Assembly: GCA_022841375.1 (NCBI GenBank)
Contig: JALHRQ010000001.1
Location: 734,892-798,891 of the forward strand
Reading direction: 5' to 3'
Length of the DNA: 64,000 bases
From: Burkholderiales bacterium
GTDB lineage: Bacteria > Pseudomonadota > Gammaproteobacteria > Burkholderiales > SG8-41
The notes under the pieces: generated by a model
What the model saw: the letters and a program-made list of their open reading frames with translations, nothing else
Databases searched by the model: none
What the model was told of the DNA's origin: nothing
Shown: in pieces, positions 21,035 to 29,743 of the stretch
How positions within the stretch are numbered: position 1 is the first letter of the stretch
Layout: each line of letters opens with the position of its first letter
Translations under genes and position numbers: made by a program

Positions 21035-21286
21035 ATGAACAAACTGTTCGCAGCCTGCATCACTGCAACCCTGATCACTTTCAGCAGCGCTGCACTGGCC
21101 TTTCATTGCCCGGCCGACATGAAAAAAATCGACGAAGCGATGTCGAAAAACCCGCAACTGAGCGCCGCACAGATGGCCGACGTCAAGAAATTCCGCGCCG
21201 AAGGCGAAACCCTGCACAAGGCCGGCAAACACCAGGAATCAGTGGACACGCTGGCCAAGGCGATGGCCCTGCTCAACATCAAATAA
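21035..21286 (+). CDS. small secreted protein, helical
   Basis: 83 residues: signal peptide MNKLFAACITATLITFSSAALA (cleavage near ALA-FH), then about 60 residues of predicted helix with FHCPADMKKIDEAM and a TPR-like stretch (VKKFRAEGETLHKAGKHQES). One cysteine in the mature part. Periplasmic; homologous small proteins are usually annotated as hypothetical. ATG follows CAGGAGATCCGCC, a good ribosome-binding site. Its last 8 nt overlap the 3' end of the convergent MOSC gene. Confidence 0.85.
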   Translation: MNKLFAACITATLITFSSAALAFHCPADMKKIDEAMSKNPQLSAAQMADVKKFRAEGETLHKAGKHQESVDTLAKAMALLNIK

Positions 21287-21824
21287 GCCGGCCCTGCCCT
21301 TCAGTCCCCGCCACGCCGGCGGGGATTTTTACGTACGCGACCGCGTCACCGATGGCGATGACGCCGCCGCTCAACACCCGCGCCGTGATTCCGCCGTGTC
21401 CGCGCATCGCGTTGTAACCGCCGCGGCCCAGCACTTCCTCCATCCGCGAACACGGCTCGCAGGGCCCCGTGCCTTCGAACAGCACATCACCGATGCGAAA
21501 GCGTTCATCGCGCAACGCCAGCAGGTTAAGCCCGGACACCACCAGATTGCGCCGCAGCAGCGCCGGATCGATCGCATCACGCCGGAGCAGTTGCGCCACC
21601 GCCGCGAGATGCTCGCGCTGGATCAGCGTGACCTGGCGCTTGCCGCCCGCGCGTTGTGCCTTGTGGTCGCCAACGAGTCCGTGGTCGACAAATACTTCAA
21701 CATGATTCATCGCCAGCAATGGCGCACGCCGGCCCGGGCGCAGGCCTATCCATTCGAGGCGGCCTTCGATGGGGAAGGTTTCCATCAGGGTGCGCAGCGG
21801 GCTGTCGGGGTTTAGTTTGTTCAT
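21279..21824 (-). CDS. MOSC-domain protein
   Basis: 181 residues, a single MOSC domain (as in molybdenum-cofactor sulfurases and YiiM/YcbX). Features are VFVDHGLVGDHKAQRAGGKRQVTLIQREHL, the RRNLVVSGLNLLALRDERFRIG strand pair, and the conserved cysteine in FEGTGPCEPCSRMEEVLG, which in family members carries sulfur or contacts the cofactor. Likely handles sulfur/molybdopterin chemistry or reduces N-hydroxylated compounds; substrate unproven. Convergent with the small secreted protein, 8-nt overlap at the stops. It marks the conserved left edge of the accessory island. Confidence 0.9.
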   Translation of the reverse strand: MNKLNPDSPLRTLMETFPIEGRLEWIGLRPGRRAPLLAMNHVEVFVDHGLVGDHKAQRAGGKRQVTLIQREHLAAVAQLLRRDAIDPALLRRNLVVSGLNLLALRDERFRIGDVLFEGTGPCEPCSRMEEVLGRGGYNAMRGHGGITARVLSGGVIAIGDAVAYVKIPAGVAGTEGQGRLI

Positions 21825-21968
21825 GGGTCGAAAAGCAAAAAATAATTATCCCGAAGAATTTCCATAAATTGTTGATTTAATTGGAGATTATTTCGCGAAT
21901 TACTCTTAACTCTCTCAACCTCCTAAGACTGAGAGGGCGTTTGAGCAAGTTTCGTAACACATCGATTC

Positions 21969-21998
21969 TTTACGAGAAAAAAATTCACAGCCTATGAT
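21969..21998 (+). promoter_or_regulatory. candidate sigma70 promoter of the HEPN-type genes
   Basis: TTTACG (21969-21974) and TATGAT (21993-21998) with an 18-bp spacer, about 60 bp before the first AT-rich gene. The whole 21825-22060 stretch is AT-rich and holds no gene. Matches are partial; assignment is by eye. Confidence 0.4.
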
Positions 21999-22060
21999 GG
22001 GCACTGAATCGGCACAAAACAGCAACAAGAAAGTCGGCTAAACACCACCGGGCTTTGCAA

Positions 22061-22585
22061 ATGAAAATCAAACAGGATTCACTCGGTCAATACGATCTAG
22101 TCTATAGCGACTATATCGACAAGGTGGCCCGAAAATATGAACCAAGAATTGGGCGTCTCTTCATCAAATTTTCCGAATTGGAGCACACACTTGATATCGC
22201 CATCGTTGAACGTCTATTTGATCGATCACACGATTTTGGCTACTTAGTTATTGAGGGCAGCAGTTTGAACAACAAGATCGAATTATTCAGAAAACTATTT
22301 CACGCTTACACAAAAGCCCTTAAGCCGAGCCAATTGAAAAAATTCAAAAACATAGTAAAGCGACTTCATGACGCACGCGTTTTTCGAAACTATGTTGCCC
22401 ATGCGAATTGGCGTACCCTCGATAAATCCGGATATGTCAGAACTCGAGTTAGCGAGAAAGAAGGGGAGGTTGTTTTCAAAAAAGTGCGCATCACGGCTCC
22501 CGCACTGGAGGCCTGGCATCGACGGATAGAGCGCTTAGACGAATTATTGCATGAGTTTGTCTCAGAACCTCAGATGCTCAAATAA
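22061..22585 (+). CDS. hypothetical protein with HEPN-type R-x4-H motif (first of pair)
   Basis: 174 residues from ATG at 22061. All-helical, charged, no membrane segment. FRNYVAHANW (Arg109-x4-His114) is the motif of HEPN domains, whose Arg and His form RNase sites in toxin-antitoxin, CRISPR-associated and antiphage proteins. It lies before the expected last helices (LEAWHRRIERLDELLHEFV). An earlier helix FSELEHTLDIAIVERLF fits the first helix of such folds. Catalysis is not shown; many HEPN proteins are inactive. AT-rich codons compared with neighbours suggest transfer. 93 bp upstream of a second protein with the same motif. No antitoxin-like nucleotidyltransferase (MNT) is adjacent. Confidence 0.75.
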   Translation: MKIKQDSLGQYDLVYSDYIDKVARKYEPRIGRLFIKFSELEHTLDIAIVERLFDRSHDFGYLVIEGSSLNNKIELFRKLFHAYTKALKPSQLKKFKNIVKRLHDARVFRNYVAHANWRTLDKSGYVRTRVSEKEGEVVFKKVRITAPALEAWHRRIERLDELLHEFVSEPQMLK

Positions 22586-22678
22586 CCGATAGCTTAGGCC
22601 TGCCTAGAAACAACATTAGTAAGCACCAAAAATGAGCTCAATCGATTTATCTGATTATCAGGTTTTATTCGAATAGCA

Positions 22679-23128
22679 ATGTCGATTCCAAACGACGGTG
22701 ACATAGTTCGCGGACTTGGGTTCGTGGCACTCTACGCCGCCTACCTGGAAGAGCAAGTCGACAGTCTTTTGCTCCTGCTTCAGCCACTTGAGCCTTACCC
22801 GGAAAAGGAGCAGCGTTGGCCAACAAGCCAAAAGATCACGAAGGCCAAACGACTTATTGCCGAAATCAATTTTGAGCTTCGTGATTCGTTACTCGCTGAT
22901 CTAAATGCGTCACAGCGACTACTCGACTGGCGAAACGAGCTAATTCATGGGCGAATCTACGCAAATTATGATCGCCCAGACAATTTGAAATCGGGGCGCC
23001 CTAACATACCGGACCGCGCAGTCGACTCGACCGAACTATATGCCTTAGCGAATAACCTAGCAGATGCCAGGACTGCGCTTTACCGTCCGATGATTTTTCA
23101 GATTCCTCGCGCAATTCGATACCGATAA
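22679..23128 (+). CDS. hypothetical protein with HEPN-type R-x4-H motif (second of pair)
   Basis: 149 residues, helical. LLDWRNELIHGRIY gives Arg85-x4-His90 with Asn after the Arg, the classical HEPN signature (RNxxxH). The N-terminal helix VALYAAYLEEQVDSLLLLL and the pair ITKAKRLIAEINFELRDSLL agree with the up-down helices of the fold. Not an obvious duplicate of the preceding gene, since only the motif and topology are shared. Same strand, AT-rich, likely same transcript as the genes on either side (17 bp to the next). RNA cleavage is possible but inferred. Start ATG at 22679; ribosome-binding site weak. Confidence 0.72.
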   Translation: MSIPNDGDIVRGLGFVALYAAYLEEQVDSLLLLLQPLEPYPEKEQRWPTSQKITKAKRLIAEINFELRDSLLADLNASQRLLDWRNELIHGRIYANYDRPDNLKSGRPNIPDRAVDSTELYALANNLADARTALYRPMIFQIPRAIRYR

Positions 23129-23145
23129 TATTGGCGCATATATCG

Positions 23146-23520
23146 ATGAACAACTCAGCCATAAAGATGCCAACAAAAGGCGATATCGCAGCGGTAATCG
23201 GATCTGCTGCCATTCCAATTTTTGCCTTGCTATGGGGAATGCAATCGGGAAATCCCTATGGCTACTTCACATTTTTGCGTATCGTGGTTTGCCTAGGCGC
23301 ATTCGTCTTTGCGAGTATCTTTGCTGGTGAAAAACGGGAAGCGCTGGTATTGCTATTCGCGGGAATCGCAATACTGTTCAACCCTTTCTTCCCAATCCAG
23401 CTAACTAGGGACAAGTGGCTGATGATCGACGCACTAACAATTTTCGCATTTTGCATTGGCCTATTTATTTGGATTGCGGGATGGCGAAAACGAAAATCGG
23501 GCCAAGCCTCTAGAACCTAA
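23146..23520 (+). CDS. small four-helix membrane protein next to the HEPN-type genes
   Basis: 124 residues from ATG at 23146 (an upstream TTG at 23131 is less likely). Four hydrophobic stretches: IAAVIGSAAIPIFALLWGM, FLRIVVCLGAFVFASIFA, ALVLLFAGIAILFNPFFPI, IDALTIFAFCIGLFIWIAGW, with YGYFTFLRIVVC and NPFFPIQLTRDKW between them. The latter two resemble small membrane proteins labelled DUF6804; I am unsure of the label. Inner-membrane location. Sits 17 bp after the second HEPN-type gene and ends before an intrinsic terminator, so the three genes look like one unit. Confidence 0.75.
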   Translation: MNNSAIKMPTKGDIAAVIGSAAIPIFALLWGMQSGNPYGYFTFLRIVVCLGAFVFASIFAGEKREALVLLFAGIAILFNPFFPIQLTRDKWLMIDALTIFAFCIGLFIWIAGWRKRKSGQASRT

Positions 23521-23547: not shown

Positions 23548-23580
23548 AACGCCCACCGACTCCCGCCGCTGGGCGTTTTT
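23548..23580 (+). terminator. intrinsic terminator after the HEPN-type unit
   Basis: Inverted repeat AACGCCCA ... TGGGCGTT (8-bp stem, 14-nt loop) followed by a T-run on the plus strand. It lies between the plus-strand membrane protein gene and the minus-strand fumC fragment, so it may serve both directions. Confidence 0.85.
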
Positions 23581-23600
23581 TGAACTGCTGAGCCTGAAAC

Positions 23601-23795
23601 TTACATCTTCTTCGCCACCTTGATCTTGATGCCCACCATGCTCTCCGGCTTGACCCACTGGTCGAACTGCGCGGAGGTCAGGTGGCCCAACTGGATCGCG
23701 GATTCCTTCAGCGTCAGGCCCTTCTTGTGCGCGTTCTTGGCGATCGCGGCGGCCTTGGCGTAACCGATATAGGGGTTCAGCGCGGTCGCCAGCAT
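23601..23795 (-). pseudogene. displaced 3'-terminal fragment of fumC
   Basis: 195 bp matching the last 65 codons (with stop) of the intact fumC at 25880-27292, at about 95% nucleotide identity (9 differences counted). The reading ends KIKVAKKM instead of KIKVAKKK, and most other changes are silent. Homology stops abruptly at AGCAT (23795), where a palindromic repeat begins. There is no start codon or N-terminus, so it cannot encode an enzyme. The order (fragment, cassette, intact gene in the same orientation) resembles integration at a gene 3' end that supplies a replacement end; tandem duplication followed by decay is the alternative. Confidence 0.9.
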
Positions 23796-23800
23796 GGGTT

Positions 23801-23856
23801 GCCCGTAATCCGCTGCCACCCAAGGTGACTTCCTTCGGGGCGCACTCCTTACGGGC
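23801..23856. repeat. REP-like palindromic repeat, left copy
   Basis: Begins GCCCGTAATCCGCTGCC and ends CTCCTTACGGGC, so the outer GCCCGTAA/TTACGGGC arms are inverted. The core (about 27 bp, containing GGTGACTTCCTTCGGGG) appears once. The same sequence occurs inverted at 24688-24794. It begins right at the break of the fumC fragment, and its right end supplies the stop codon of the next gene. Confidence 0.85.
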
Positions 23857-24365
23857 TAGGTTTGCTTCGGCTTGCTGTACCCACCGGCTATCCACGCCTC
23901 TGCGCTGACCGCGTTTAATTTGAAGTCTGTCCGCACCATCACCTGCGCCAGTTGTGCGCCATCCGGGTCATGCGCGCTCAGCAGGGCATGCGGCTCGTCT
24001 TCGTCAGGCACTACGTCCAGTGCCACACGGACAGACTGATCGTTCACGATGACGGTGATGGTTTTGTGCAGCAAGGCCTGCAGGTGCTGCTCGTGGCGGA
24101 GTACCACCTCTGAGGCCGTTTTGACCAGCGTATTGAATGCGTTGCCATCGAGCGGCTTCGGATTCTTTTTATCGCGCCCCATGGTCCACGGGCCCACCAG
24201 CGCGGGTTCGGGTTGGCCATCCATAATCATTTCCACGGCCCAACCGTCGTCATCGTTGTTTTTTATGACGCGTGCGGTCCACCCCCTTTGCACCCACAGG
24301 CGCGGTTCGTTGATGACGGGGGCTTCGTCAGACGCAAGGTCCGGGTGGTCGAGGGGTGTTGTCAT
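23856..24365 (-). CDS. hypothetical protein of the repeat-bounded cassette
   Basis: 169 residues, acidic, soluble, no signal peptide or clear domain. WVQRGWTARVIKNNDDDGWAVEM is followed by GPWTMGRDKKNPKPLDGNAFNTL and a predicted helix VLRHEQHLQALLHKTITV. The C-terminal third (VRTDFKLNAVSAEAWIAGGYS) is beta/alpha. The stop codon TAG lies inside the left REP-like repeat. Composition is consistent with a real protein, and the antisense frames are poor. Function unknown. It occupies most of the DNA between the two inverted repeats and could be a cargo gene. Confidence 0.65.
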   Translation of the reverse strand: MTTPLDHPDLASDEAPVINEPRLWVQRGWTARVIKNNDDDGWAVEMIMDGQPEPALVGPWTMGRDKKNPKPLDGNAFNTLVKTASEVVLRHEQHLQALLHKTITVIVNDQSVRVALDVVPDEDEPHALLSAHDPDGAQLAQVMVRTDFKLNAVSAEAWIAGGYSKPKQT

Positions 24366-24472
24366 GGCGGTAGTGTAATGTCACTTGCAACCGATGCCGC
24401 CCACATTCCAGCGCGTGATCGACACATACACTGTATAAGGGTGCCTCACATCACGTTAACGGGAATGCGATT

Positions 24473-24679
24473 TTGACCATTACATTGATCGGCACCAGCT
24501 TTTGGGTAATGGCCCTGCACGATATTGGCGAGAAAATCAAAAAGGGCTTTCACGTCCTGATTGATCCCGATGCGATACCGGGCCTGACGGATTTTGTGCT
24601 GGTTGGCGATAACCTGGAGCACTGGCACGGGCAAGCAGGCTCTCGCGGAGTTGTGGTTTTGGCGGGGGAGGACGTTTAG
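24473..24679 (+). CDS. possible small protein in the cassette
   Basis: 68 residues from a TTG at 24473: MTITLIGTSFWVMALHDIGEKIKKGFHVLIDPDAIPGLTDFVLVGDN and a glycine-rich end. Plausible alpha/beta composition, but no recognised domain and only a weak ribosome-binding site. It is divergent from the larger cassette gene. A minus-strand frame covers the same DNA with less protein-like composition. Low confidence. Confidence 0.35.
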   Translation: MTITLIGTSFWVMALHDIGEKIKKGFHVLIDPDAIPGLTDFVLVGDNLEHWHGQAGSRGVVVLAGEDV

Positions 24680-24687
24680 CAAGCGTA

Positions 24688-24794
24688 GCCCGTAAGTAGC
24701 GCGCCCCGAAGGAAGTCACCTTGGGTGGCGCCCCGAAGGAAGTCACCTTGGGTGGCGCCCCGAAGGAAGTCACCTTGGGTGGCAGCGGATTACG
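24688..24794. repeat. REP-like repeat, right copy, with 27-bp unit in three tandem copies
   Basis: Inverted relative to the copy at 23801. It opens with GCCCGTAAGTAGC; then a 27-bp unit beginning GCGCCCCGAAGGAAGTCACC is present three times with exact period (24701, 24728, 24755), and it closes with GCAGCGGATTACG. The left copy has a single unit. Because 27 is a multiple of 3, the minus strand reads as repeated PPKVTSFGA in an open frame, which I regard as accidental. A further inverted repeat CCTGTAA...TTACAGG follows at 24812-24838. Confidence 0.9.
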
Positions 24795-24936
24795 CGGCAT
24801 TCAACATAAATCCTGTAATACGCTTCGCGCCTTACAGGCTACTCGCTATATACGGAAACGTACAGACATACCGGAGTCCTGACCGGTAACTTTCTTCGCA
24901 CGTCGAACTTGCGGCGGATAAATCAAGGAGTCTTTT

Positions 24937-25440
24937 ATGAAGAAGTCCTTAATCGCGATACTGTCTCTTTTCGTAGTCGCCCTGACACTACCGCTGCAAG
25001 CCGCCTCTCCGAAAACCGAGAAGAGTCTGTATGAACGGCTTGGCGGTGTCTTCGCCATCGCCATGGTCGTTGACCATTTTAGCGACGCAGTGGTGCAGAA
25101 CCCGATCGTAGGAAAAGCTTCGCAAAACCCAGCCCTCAGGGAATGGCACACGAAAAATCTGGGCAGGTTGCCGGGCCTCAAATTCATGCGAACCCTTTGG
25201 GTCTGCGAGGTTTCCGGTGGGCCGTTCAAATTCTCGCCAACAAAGCCGGGCAAAACTCATCTGGGACTTGAGAACGCGCATCGTGACCTCAAGATCTCGC
25301 CTGCAGAATTCGACGAGGTGGCAGCCGAACTGGGCCGCAGCCTTGACTTCGCCAAAGTGCCTGCGCGCGAAAAGGGAGAAGTGCTGGCCGCTTTCGCTGC
25401 GCACAAGAACGAGGTAACGGCTGGCTACAAGACGAAGTGA
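24937..25440 (+). CDS. secreted group 1 truncated haemoglobin
   Basis: 167 residues. Signal peptide MKKSLIAILSLFVVALTLPLQAA (cleavage near QAA-SP) followed by a TrHb1/GlbN-type globin: SLYERLGGVFAIAMVVDHF is the family opening, and THLGLENAHRDLKI carries the likely proximal haem ligand His115, with His108 just before. Such proteins bind oxygen or NO or detoxify NO; here export places it in the periplasm, which is less usual. Good ribosome-binding site CAAGGAG before ATG 24937. Isolated gene between the inverted-repeat cassette and fumC, so part of the accessory island. Ligand and partner reductase unknown. Confidence 0.9.
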   Translation: MKKSLIAILSLFVVALTLPLQAASPKTEKSLYERLGGVFAIAMVVDHFSDAVVQNPIVGKASQNPALREWHTKNLGRLPGLKFMRTLWVCEVSGGPFKFSPTKPGKTHLGLENAHRDLKISPAEFDEVAAELGRSLDFAKVPAREKGEVLAAFAAHKNEVTAGYKTK

Positions 25441-25743
25441 ATTTGATTGGCTTGCGTTTCAGCCCAATACTCATTGTCCGCTCCTCGGCTTAGCAGCCTC
25501 AGGCGAGCTGTCTTCGCGTCTGGGTTGTTCGCGGACCGTGCCCAACGGCGACGTTAGCTGTCTAATTGCCGATGAAAATATGCGAAAACAAGGGACGACT
25601 GTTTATAACCAAGCACATAAAACAACGCATCCAAGGAAACCTTGGAGTTGATTCGATCACAGATGACAAACGGGACTTGTATCCCGACAAAGTAATTTAA
25701 TTCGATACTGTTTGTTAGATATCCGATCACTCAGTACAAAAAG
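25441..25743. other. intergenic stretch with one 42-codon ORF
   Basis: No recognised gene. The only notable frame is 25572-25700 (+), 42 codons beginning MKICENKGRLFITKHIKQRI and ending in TAA, AT-richer than its surroundings and without a good ribosome-binding site. It could be a remnant or a small unknown protein; not strong enough to call. Confidence 0.4.
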
Positions 25744-25780
25744 AAACGCCTGCCGACACTCGCCGGCAGGCGTTTTTTTT
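25744..25780. terminator. bidirectional intrinsic terminator after fumC
   Basis: ACGCCTGCCG ... CGGCAGGCGT, a 10-bp perfect stem with a run of eight T on the plus side and TTTCTTTTT on the minus side. Ends the fumC transcript and any plus-strand transcript from the island. Confidence 0.88.
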
Positions 25781-25785
25781 ATTAT

Positions 25786-25866
25786 CCCTCTCCCTCATTG
25801 CTTTGCTTCAAGTGTTCCCTTGCCTACCGTCAAGCGGCAACGAGGTCCCCGCAAGCGGGGAGAGGG
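25786..25866. repeat. intergenic repeat copy A (CCCTCTCCC / GGGGAGAGGG) downstream of fumC
   Basis: Starts CCCTCTCCC and ends CCCCGCAAGCGGGGAGAGGG, with TTCAAGTGTTCCCTTG in the middle. The same elements appear at 27354-27416 downstream of maeB. The ends are complementary and can pair. Each copy follows the 3' end of a minus-strand gene. Confidence 0.8.
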
Positions 25867-25879
25867 AAATGTGGGTTGC

Positions 25880-27292
25880 TTACTTCTTCTTCGCCACCTT
25901 GATCTTGATGCCCACCATGCTCTCCGGCTTGACCCACTGGTCGAACTGCGCGGAAGTCAGGTGGCCCAACTGGATCGCCGATTCCTTCAGCGTCAGGCCC
26001 TTCTTGTGCGCGTTCTTGGCGATTGCAGCGGCCTTGGCGTAGCCGATGTACGGGTTCAGCGCGGTCACCAGCATCAGCGATTCGCGCATCAGTTGATCGA
26101 TGCGGGCGCGGTTGGGTTCGATGCCGGCGGCGCAATGCTCGTCGAAGTTTTCGCAGGCATGCGTCAGCAGGTGCGCGCTGTGCATGAAGTTGCGGATCAC
26201 CATCGGGCGGAACACGTTGAGTTCGAAGTTGCCCATCGAGCCGCCGACGTTGATCGCGACGTCGTTGCCGAAGACCTGGCAGCAGGCCATGGTCATCGAC
26301 TCGGACTGCGTCGGGTTGACCTTGCCCGGCATGATCGACGAGCCCGGTTCGTTTTCCGGAATGCTCAGTTCGCCGATGCCGCAACGCGGGCCGCTCGACA
26401 GCCAGCGGATGTCGTTGGCGATTTTCATCAGCGAAGTCGCGAGCGTTTTCAGCGCACCGTGGGCACTGACCACACCGTCGCAGGAACCCAGCGCTTCGAA
26501 CTTGTTGGGCGCGGTGACAAAGGGCATGCCGGTGAGTTTTTTCAGCTGCGCGGCAACGTCTTTCGCAAACTTCGGGTGCGCATTCAGCCCGGTGCCGACG
26601 GCGGTGCCGCCGAGTGCCAGTTCACAGAGATGTGGTTTGGCGGCGTCGATGTGTTTCAGCGCGTGATCCAGTTGCGCGACATAACCGGAGAATTCCTGGC
26701 CCAGCGTCAGCGGCGTCGCATCCTGCAGATGGGTGCGGCCGATCTTGACGATGTTCATGAAGGACTTCGCCTTCTTGTCCAGCGTGTTGCGCAGTTTTTT
26801 CACCGCCGGCTTGAGTTCCTTTTCCAGCGCGATCACCGCGGCGACGTGCATCGCCGTGGGGAAGGTGTCGTTCGACGACTGGCCCTTGTTGACGTCGTCG
26901 TTCTCGTGGACCAAGCGCGTGGCGCCGCGTTTGCCGCCGAGAATTTCGGAGGCGCGGTTGGCCAGCACTTCGTTGACGTTCATATTGGTCTGCGTGCCGG
27001 AACCGGTCTGCCACACCACCAGCGGGAAATGATCGTTCCATTGTCCGGTCAGCGCTTCGTCGGCGGCCTTGACGATGGCGCCGCCTTTTTTCTTGTCGAG
27101 CACGCCCAGCGCCATGTTGGTCAGCGCGGCGGCTTTTTTCACCAGCACCTGCGCGTGCACCACCGGCATCGGCATGGTCTCGCCGGGGAAATGGAAGTGA
27201 TGCAGGCTGCGCTGGGTCTGCGCGCCCCACAGCATGTTGTCGGGCACGTCGATCTCGCCCATCGTGTCGTTTTCGATGCGGAATTTGGCCAT
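25880..27292 (-). CDS. fumC: class II fumarate hydratase
   Basis: 470 residues, full length. Iron-independent, homotetrameric; converts fumarate to malate in the citric acid cycle and is oxidation-resistant. Seen: [26 protein letters not shown] opening, [33 protein letters not shown] with the active-site His, and the fumarase/aspartase signature [15 protein letters not shown]. The last 65 codons are duplicated at 23601-23795. maeB lies upstream on the same strand, so C4-acid metabolism genes adjoin. Flanked on both sides by copies of the CCCTCTCCC repeat. ATG at 27292. Confidence 0.98.
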
Positions 27293-27353
27293 GGTCGTCA
27301 GTCTGTAAAAATAGTTAATTAAAACAACTAGTTACAAGCAAGCCGCTGTGCGG

Positions 27354-27416
27354 CCCCTCTCCCTAACCTCTACTTCGTTTCAAGTGTTCCCTTGTCCCCG
27401 CAAGCGGGGAGAGGGG
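27354..27416. repeat. intergenic repeat copy B between maeB and fumC
   Basis: Shorter version of the element at 25786: CCCCTCTCCC, TTTCAAGTGTTCCCTTG, then CCCCGCAAGCGGGGAGAGGGG. Lies 30 bp after the maeB stop. Paired arms could form a hairpin between the two genes. Confidence 0.8.
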
Positions 27417-27445
27417 GAATACTGTGGTGTCGCTGACCAAAGCCA

Positions 27446-29743
27446 TCAAATCAGCGGCTTCTGTTCGCCGCGCTGGGCACCGGCATCAACCACCGACAGC
27501 GCGGTCATGTTGACGATGCGGCGCACGGTCGAGGACGGCGTGATGATGTGCACCGGCTTGGCGGCGCCAAGCAGAATCGGGCCAATGGTGATGCCATCAC
27601 CGGACGAAGTCTTCAGCAGGTTGAACGAAATATTCGCGGCGTCGAGATTGGGCATCACCAGCAGGTTGGCCGCGCCCTTCAAACGATTGTCGGGCAGCGC
27701 GCGCTGGCGGATTTCTTCGGACAACGCCATGTCGCCCTGCATCTCGCCTTCGACCTCAAGGTTCGGATCCATGTGCGTCACCAGTTCCAGCGCGCGGCGC
27801 ATTTTCTGCGCAGTAACGCTGTCGCTGCCGCCGAAACTCGAATGCGACAGCATCGCCGCCCGCGGTATCAAACCAAAGCGGCGGATTTCTTCCGCGGCGA
27901 GGATTGTTGATTCGGCGATCTGCTCGGCGGTGGGATCGAAAGTAACGTAGGTGTCGCAGATGAATACGGTAGCCTTGGACAACAGCAAGGCGTTCATCGC
28001 TGAATACTGGTTTACCCCGGCGCGGCGGCCGATGACCTGGTCGATGGTGCGCAGGTGGCGGCTGTACTGGCCGAAGATGCCGCAGAGCATCGCGTCGGCA
28101 TCGCCCATGTGCACCATCATCGCGCCGATCAGCGTCGGCCGGCGGCGGATGTCTAGCTTGGCGAGTTCAACCGAGACACCCTTGCGTTTGGTAAGGCGGT
28201 GATACTCGGTCCAGTAATCGCGGTAGCGCGGATCGTTGTTGGGATCGACAATCTCGTAATGCTGGTCGCGCACCAGTCGCAGGCCGAGGCGCTCGATGCG
28301 GGTCTTGATGACGTCGGGACGGCCGACCAGGATCGGCCGCGCGATGCCCTCGTCGGCGATCTGCTGCGCGGCGCGCAGGAAACGTTCTTCCTCGCCCTCG
28401 GCGTAGACCACGCGCTTCGGCGCTTTTTTCGCGGCGGTAAACACCGAACGCATGATGTGACCGGACTGGTAGACAAAGCGGTTCAGCCGCTCCTTGTAGG
28501 CATCAAAGTCGGTGATCGGGCGCGTCGCCACACCACTGTCCATCGCCGCCTTGGCGACGGCCGGTGCCACGTGCTCGATCAGGCGCGGATCAAAAGGCCG
28601 CGGAATCAGGTAGTCGGGCCCGAACTTGAGATCCTGCTCACCGTAGGCAGCAGCAACGATGTCCGATTGCTCGGCCTGCGCCAGTGCGGCGATCGCGTTG
28701 ACGGCGGCAATTTCCATGTCGCGGTTGATGGTGGTCGCGCCGACATCCAGCGCGCCGCGGAAAATGAACGGAAAACACAACACGTTGTTGACCTGGTTCG
28801 GGTAATCCGAACGGCCGGTCGCCATCACCGCATCGGGGCGCACTTCTTTCACCAGCTCGGGCAGGATTTCCGGCTCCGGATTGGCCAGCGCGAGAATCAG
28901 CGGGCGGTCCGCCATCAGCTTGACCGATTCCGGCTTGAGGACTTTGCCCGCCGACAATCCCAGGAAAGCATCGGCACCCGCCATCACCTCCGACAGCGTG
29001 CGCGCCTTGGTGTCGATGGCGTAACGCGCCTTGTCGTCATCCATCAGTTCGGTGCGGCCCTTGTAGACCACGCCGACGATGTCGGTGACGGTGATGTTTT
29101 CCTTTTTGAGGCCCAGTGACACCAGCAGGTCGAGGCAGGCCAGCGCTGCGGCGCCGGCGCCGGAGACCACGAGCTTGATTTTGGAAATGTCCTTGCCGAC
29201 GACCTTGAGGCCGTTGGTGAATGCTGCGCTGACGATGATCGCGGTGCCGTGCTGGTCATCGTGGAACACCGGAATCTTGCAGCGCTTGCGCAATTCGCGC
29301 TCGACAATAAAACACTCCGGCGCCTTGATGTCTTCAAGATTGATGCCGCCGAAAGTCGGCTCCAGCGAGGCGATGATGTCGACCAGCTTGTACGGGTCGA
29401 GTTCATTGATTTCGATGTCAAAGACGTCGATGCCGGCAAACTTCTTGAACAGTACCGCCTTGCCTTCCATTACCGGCTTGGAGGCCAGCGGCCCGATGTT
29501 GCCGAGGCCCAGCACTGCGGTGCCGTTGGTAATCACCGCGACCAGATTGCCGCGCGCCGTGTAAAGGCTGGCGTCAGCGGGCTTGTCGGCGATTTCGAGG
29601 CAGACCTTGGCCACGCCGGGGGTGTAGGCCAGCGCGAGATCGCGCTGATTGACCAGACCCTTGGTCGGCGTGACGGCAATCTTGCCCGGCACCGGATAAC
29701 GATGGTATTCGAGGGCTGCTTTGCGCAGTTGTTCTTCAGGCAT
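27446..29743 (-). CDS. maeB: NADP-dependent malic enzyme (MaeB, phosphotransacetylase fusion)
   Basis: 765 residues. The N-terminal malic enzyme domain (about 1-420) decarboxylates malate to pyruvate: [55 protein letters not shown] and the Rossmann motif [15 protein letters not shown]. The C-terminal phosphotransacetylase-like domain (about 430-760) contains [16 protein letters not shown] and [14 protein letters not shown]; in MaeB it has a regulatory role and is thought to bind acetyl-CoA rather than catalyse. Provides pyruvate and NADPH. Upstream of fumC on the same strand. ATG at 29743 with GGAAGG somewhat far upstream. Confidence 0.97.

Follow-up and report, generated by a model that had tools for sequence, protein, structure and literature searches.

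The interval between a MOSC-domain gene and fumC is probably a gene-turnover hot spot, and the duplicated 3' end of fumC found within it the seam of two alternative versions of that spot. One version (A) would consist of fumC, a terminator, a globin gene, orf68 and orf169, and the other (B) of a fumC tail, a terminator, a DUF6804 gene, ORFs of 149 and 176 aa and the MOSC gene. The window, the whole stretch of 64,000 nucleotides that was analysed, lies within an 828-kb contig of a 4.08-Mb genome assembled in 66 contigs. On the + strand, the left part of the locus reads MOSC, 176-aa ORF, 149-aa ORF, DUF6804, terminator, fumC fragment and a dispersed repeat. The right part continues with orf169, orf68, the same repeat inverted (three 27-bp units), globin, terminator, a second palindrome, fumC and a gene which we take to encode malic enzyme (malE).

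The two copies of the fumC end, at 23600-23795 and 25879-26074, were aligned over 196 nt without gaps at 95% identity (nine differences), in the same orientation and with a spacing of 2279, which in our judgement is not a chance match. This bore out the second copy claimed in a preliminary description, as did the 2083 bp (23796-25878) measured between the copies for its figure of about 2.08 kb. The intact fumC (25880-27292, minus strand, 470 aa) contributes its last 195 nt (25880-26074), from codon 407 (ATG) through the stop codon, plus one base. The second copy, possibly displaced and also on the minus strand, retains a 64-codon open frame starting at the ATG, and the ORF at 23601-23819 matched Pfam FumaraseC_C with an E-value of 2.5e-25. 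Seven of the nine differences are synonymous; the other two alter amino acids (V to A, and the last K to M), and in both the unusual state sits in the fragment, not in the intact gene. A freestanding C-terminal mini-protein was considered on account of the in-frame ATG at the start of the fragment and was set aside: of its four private changes two are non-synonymous, and nothing supports such a protein.

The repeat ends could be mapped to this 195 nt plus one base, but the similarity does not cease at the stop codon. A terminator-like hairpin follows each copy, and the one after the fragment (23548-23581) resembles that after intact fumC (25745-25778) at 79% and matches the stretch after fumC in relatives. 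The stretch ~23548-23795 was aligned as one piece with the relatives' own fumC end and terminator in several genomes (e.g. G013, 92%). Beyond the terminator, different genes lie after each of the two tails. After the intact gene, a second palindromic repeat (~25785-25868) is placed between the stop codon and the hairpin; a palindromic repeat at 27394-27415, between fumC and malE, recurs at 25845-25866. The Rfam search gave one sub-threshold match, a threonine leader at 25705-25780.

The DNA between the copies had been called foreign-looking. Accessory genes do lie there, but the most foreign-looking DNA was found to the left of the fragment, at 21880-23520, where GC is 45.5% compared to 59.4% for the window. 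Between the copies, GC is 58.8% at 23796-24797 and 51.5% at 24798-25740. The genes here are orf169 (23856-24365, minus strand, no known family), its divergent partner orf68 (24473-24679, plus strand) and a truncated-haemoglobin-like gene (24937-25440, plus strand; Pfam Bac_globin, E 4.9e-6) with an N-terminus that by eye is signal-peptide-like. The low-GC block holds, all on the plus strand, a 176-aa ORF (22055-22585) with a sub-threshold DUF4145 hint (E 0.058), a 149-aa ORF (22679-23128) with no Pfam, PADLOC or NCBIfam match, and a DUF6804 gene (23131-23520; Pfam E 5.5e-19). Searches of orf169, orf68 and other ORFs against PADLOC and NCBIfam gave only weak matches, with E 0.01 or worse. No nucleotide match to the block (E up to 0.001) was present in the 20 other genomes of the genus. 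Of the 73 other genomes of the family, one has a homologue of DUF6804 (E up to 1e-8). A plasmid origin was considered and not retained: matches came from 29 plasmid records, and the best 8 of 29 match the globin region only, two of these eight being annotated as group 1 truncated hemoglobin. None of the candidate occurrences of orf169 on viral contigs was confirmed.

To the left, the MOSC-domain gene (21279-21824, minus strand) forms the conserved opposite border of the spot. Both MOSC and fumC were found on one contig in 13 of 20 genus relatives, 52-3,488 bp apart (tblastn ends) and with a single fumC in each, and the contents of the interval differ among these 13; conserved flanks thus enclose changing contents. 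The uninterrupted junction that the preliminary description proposed to look for in relatives was approached most closely in G017, which at 52 bp is a near-empty site. For the remaining seven relatives, the genes were on separate contigs in G005, G008 and G012, only MOSC was found in G006 and G010, only fumC in G011, and neither in G009. Pfam matches among ten chosen interval ORFs included FRG, HNH, ParE, helix-turn-helix, AbiJ N-terminal, UDG, AAA domain and Rce1-like peptidase, and Y1 transposases were found by Pfam inside the interval of G007 and G014. These Y1 (IS200-like) transposase genes, possibly REP-associated, were located at L076:2837-3367 (G007) and L078:804-1334 (G014).

Of the 20 genus relatives, 17 yielded a complete fumC of this type (G006, G009 and G010 did not), and a second tail was found in none of these 17. 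At the family level, fumC was matched in 62 of 74 genomes and, besides the genome under study (G000), a second close tail was seen in G072 alone. Considered as a parallel case, with a parallel nudix neighbour, this tail was set aside because it runs into a contig end. In eight other family genomes, the second fumC match is a paralogue of 40-43% identity. G013 (L094) carries, away from its fumC, a 68%-identical fragment of the fumC middle (residues 296-366) with a stop codon.

Among the matches listed, orf169 homologues at 92-95% amino-acid identity were present in five other genomes of the genus. In G012, G013 and G016, orf169/orf68 lie directly beyond the terminator of an unduplicated fumC; in G006, the contig runs a short way beyond this terminator and stops without reaching a fumC. 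At loci other than fumC, the pair was found in G001 and L100, and so seems to be mobile itself. As an ~825-bp block (23856-24679), it adjoins fumC in three relatives and probably in a fourth, and its nucleotide identity is 92-95% in five genus genomes (among the matches listed), though G001 is distant in malE. Loci of this genus are also present in the metagenome records L100 and L102, whose Bordetella parapertussis titles look like misnomers.

At 23795/23802 the two stretches meet, each headed by a fumC end and a terminator, and the join shows no visible homology. Incoming DNA, probably from a close relative, would have recombined by homology at one conserved border, while a non-homologous join would have linked its other end to a fumC copy, either within the copy or at its end, next to a REP-like repeat. 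Such a join at this place would leave both versions in the chromosome. The route would be homology-facilitated illegitimate recombination, in which the repeat may have had a role; this process has been described for naturally competent species and for conjugation (PMC3240628). To this extent part of the earlier suggestion was retained, in that incoming DNA may have entered at the place marked by the second tail; as the main reading, an attachment site is not supported.

The dispersed, REP-like palindromic repeat lies ~6 nt from the fragment edge (23801-23857, plus strand) and recurs in inverse orientation at 24687-24797 (minus strand), where 24701-24783 consists of three perfect tandem 27-bp units of this genus-wide repeat. 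Longer arrays of the 27-bp unit were seen in other genomes, e.g. on contigs C3, C37 and C41 of G018. Allowing one mismatch or fewer, the core was matched 27 times in this genome and was present in 19 of 21 genus genomes; the reversed control gave no match in any of the 21. As a single strand, the right copy folds better than shuffled sequences (z -3.7), and the left copy less so (z -1.7). The left copy is matched at 91-93% over 56 nt next to fumC in both G012 and G005. A transposase tied to the repeat was sought and rejected: two Y1_Tnp matches were found, on contig C12, and neither locus held a repeat copy (7 or fewer mismatches). A composite transposon flanked by the repeat was likewise rejected, as among the pair copies of G001, G006, G012, G013 and G016 the repeat (6 or fewer mismatches) was present only in G012, on one side of the pair, the other side spanning just ~100 bp.

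Exchange of DNA next door is suggested by the trees. The fumC sequence groups with G008, G012 and G013 (SH-aLRT 97), whereas malE groups with G011 and G015 (98), in single-gene trees from a short search without a whole-genome tree. The MOSC, nudix and ybaK genes fall with the G008/G012/G013 clade plus G006 (95-96), with forks open. The conflict between fumC and malE would place a recombination break near 27293-27446, between the two genes.

To compare the two tails, private states were scored at sites where G008, G012 and G013 agree, with gaps set aside. Across 175 tail sites, the intact tail has six private states and the fragment five, of which by subtraction one is common to both. In the rest of fumC (positions 1-1176, without the tail overlap), 22 private states were counted in 1042 sites. 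The private changes of the intact tail are not clearly denser than these and hence do not mark it as foreign. The fragment's own share is four of the nine differences, compared to ~82% expected had it been non-coding since the split (p 0.014). So few changes fit a recent meeting of two tails from separate lineages, each of which had until then evolved as a functional gene end, although few sites were counted and the copies could also have been kept alike by gene conversion. The outer low-GC block with its 195-nt tail was slightly preferred over the version A side as the newcomer, based on the fumC neighbours in relatives and on the low-GC block itself. That the intact copy departs from G008, G012 and G013 at five of the nine differing sites would rather speak for the intact tail as newcomer. 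Against the seam as a whole, a possible donor, in which version B adjoins a complete fumC, was found neither among the 20 other genus genomes (by nucleotide) nor among the 73 other family genomes (by DUF6804).

The order of the differing sites is less readily accommodated. The intact copy agrees with G008/G012/G013 at sites 8, 24 and 27; at sites 33, 48, 51, 96 and 120, the fragment agrees with them and the intact copy departs; and at site 191 the intact copy is native again, breaking the two-block pattern. Nine of the 126 possible orders are equally clustered, and the identical stretch at the putative crossover, between sites 27 and 33, is only 5 bases long. This weak mosaic hints that a crossover took place within the tail. 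A simple join at another place would not predict one, and the hint thus counts against the seam of two versions.

Such an order is what one crossover between sites 27 and 33 would give if an element had entered the tail and supplied a new fumC 3' end of its own, as e14 does in icd of Escherichia coli, leaving the fragment as the displaced original, with the integrase of the element lost or acting in trans. This was considered an unlikely origin, even though direct repeats running from inside the gene to its stop codon, with both ends open, flank the segment. The e14 repeat is given as 165 bp with 12 exchanges and two amino-acid changes (PMC11148124), to which the 195 nt, nine exchanges and two changes found here come near. 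As in that account, a short 3' gene end appears displaced with mostly silent exchanges; unlike there, where the copies enclose a prophage that encodes an integrase, the segment here is 2.08 kb, no recombinase was found in it and the pair is similarly placed in relatives. No recombinase family was detected in the scanned ORFs, and none of the genome's 13 matches to the tyrosine integrase family PF00589 falls in the window, in agreement with the earlier statement that no integrase is left. The order of sites itself is as weak as stated above, with site 191 off the pattern and 5 bases of identity at the crossover. The orf169/orf68 pair, inside the supposed island, adjoins a normal fumC in three relatives, and second tails are missing from all 17 genus relatives with this fumC, the only other one in the family (G072) lying at a contig end. 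The proposal that the fumC 3' end served as an attachment site is not favoured as the main reading.

Among 50,697 phage records, a single match was found (117 bp, 73.5%), on the fumC tail, and a phage origin was rejected. In that record, Pseudomonas phage Tom33 (L124, 27459-28768), the match to FumC covers 83% of the protein at 38% identity and is split into three pieces, where the annotation shows four hypothetical proteins. The match therefore represents a broken-up whole fumarase-like gene and not a lone tail or attachment site, which also tells against the e14-like integration. An integron gene cassette was rejected, as attC-like motifs near 25500-25560 were not clearly better folded than shuffles in four folds (z -1.53 to 0.10).

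Two further explanations were both judged improbable. In the first, the assembly would have wrongly joined hot-spot versions of two co-occurring strains. All six named genus-level records in which a close homologue of orf169 was found derive from metagenomes, the dispersed repeat lies near the seam and the G008 fumC contig ends inside the tail, all of which would suit a chimera; the join between fumC and the repeat, however, does not fall within the repeat, and the contig extends over 828 kb. In the second, equally improbable, the fumC end was duplicated in tandem in this lineage, then decayed and was separated by insertions. A terminator does follow both copies, and the one private state deduced from the counts to be common to both tails, unlike G008, G012 and G013, fits a duplication. 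Against it, each copy is followed past its terminator by different genes, the fragment has changed little for a copy that old and orf169/orf68 adjoin fumC in relatives without any duplication. The earlier duplication that decayed, raised in the preliminary description, is accordingly a poor fit to sequences that differ in this way and to so few changes in a long-dead copy. Very unlikely is a compact recombinase-less element (REP-orf169-orf68-REP plus globin) that was moved in trans into the fumC tail and restored the gene end with a crossover between sites 27 and 33.

The seam of two hot-spot versions has counterparts in known systems. Hot spots of horizontal transfer without mobile elements, with recombination at the flanking core genes, are described by Oliveira et al. 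(2017, PMC5635113), where integrase-free spots are given as common. The present locus resembles them, as there described, in its conserved borders, changing contents, lack of an integrase here and phylogenetic conflict in an adjoining core gene (malE against fumC, in single-gene trees). It differs in being one locus in one genus with a retained scar, whereas that analysis was statistical, covered 80 species and used its own threshold, and also in that G007 and G014 carry a Y1 transposase gene in the spot. For stacked arrays of immunity genes at Vibrio type VI secretion (T6SS) loci, homology-facilitated illegitimate recombination has been proposed (PMC5361080). In that proposal too, DNA is anchored by homology on one side and the old downstream end, including the 3' end of the effector gene, is shifted back; here a housekeeping gene is duplicated, a single stacking was found and no selection was seen.

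The locus is thus probably a variable spot at which gene exchange left an ordinary scar, and an attachment site is not favoured. The fumC gene itself has been used for strain typing (PMC4619438). The locus would exemplify a hot spot in which two versions are retained one after the other. No integrase need plausibly be invoked for the duplication of a 3' gene end, and not every such repeat should be taken for an attachment site.
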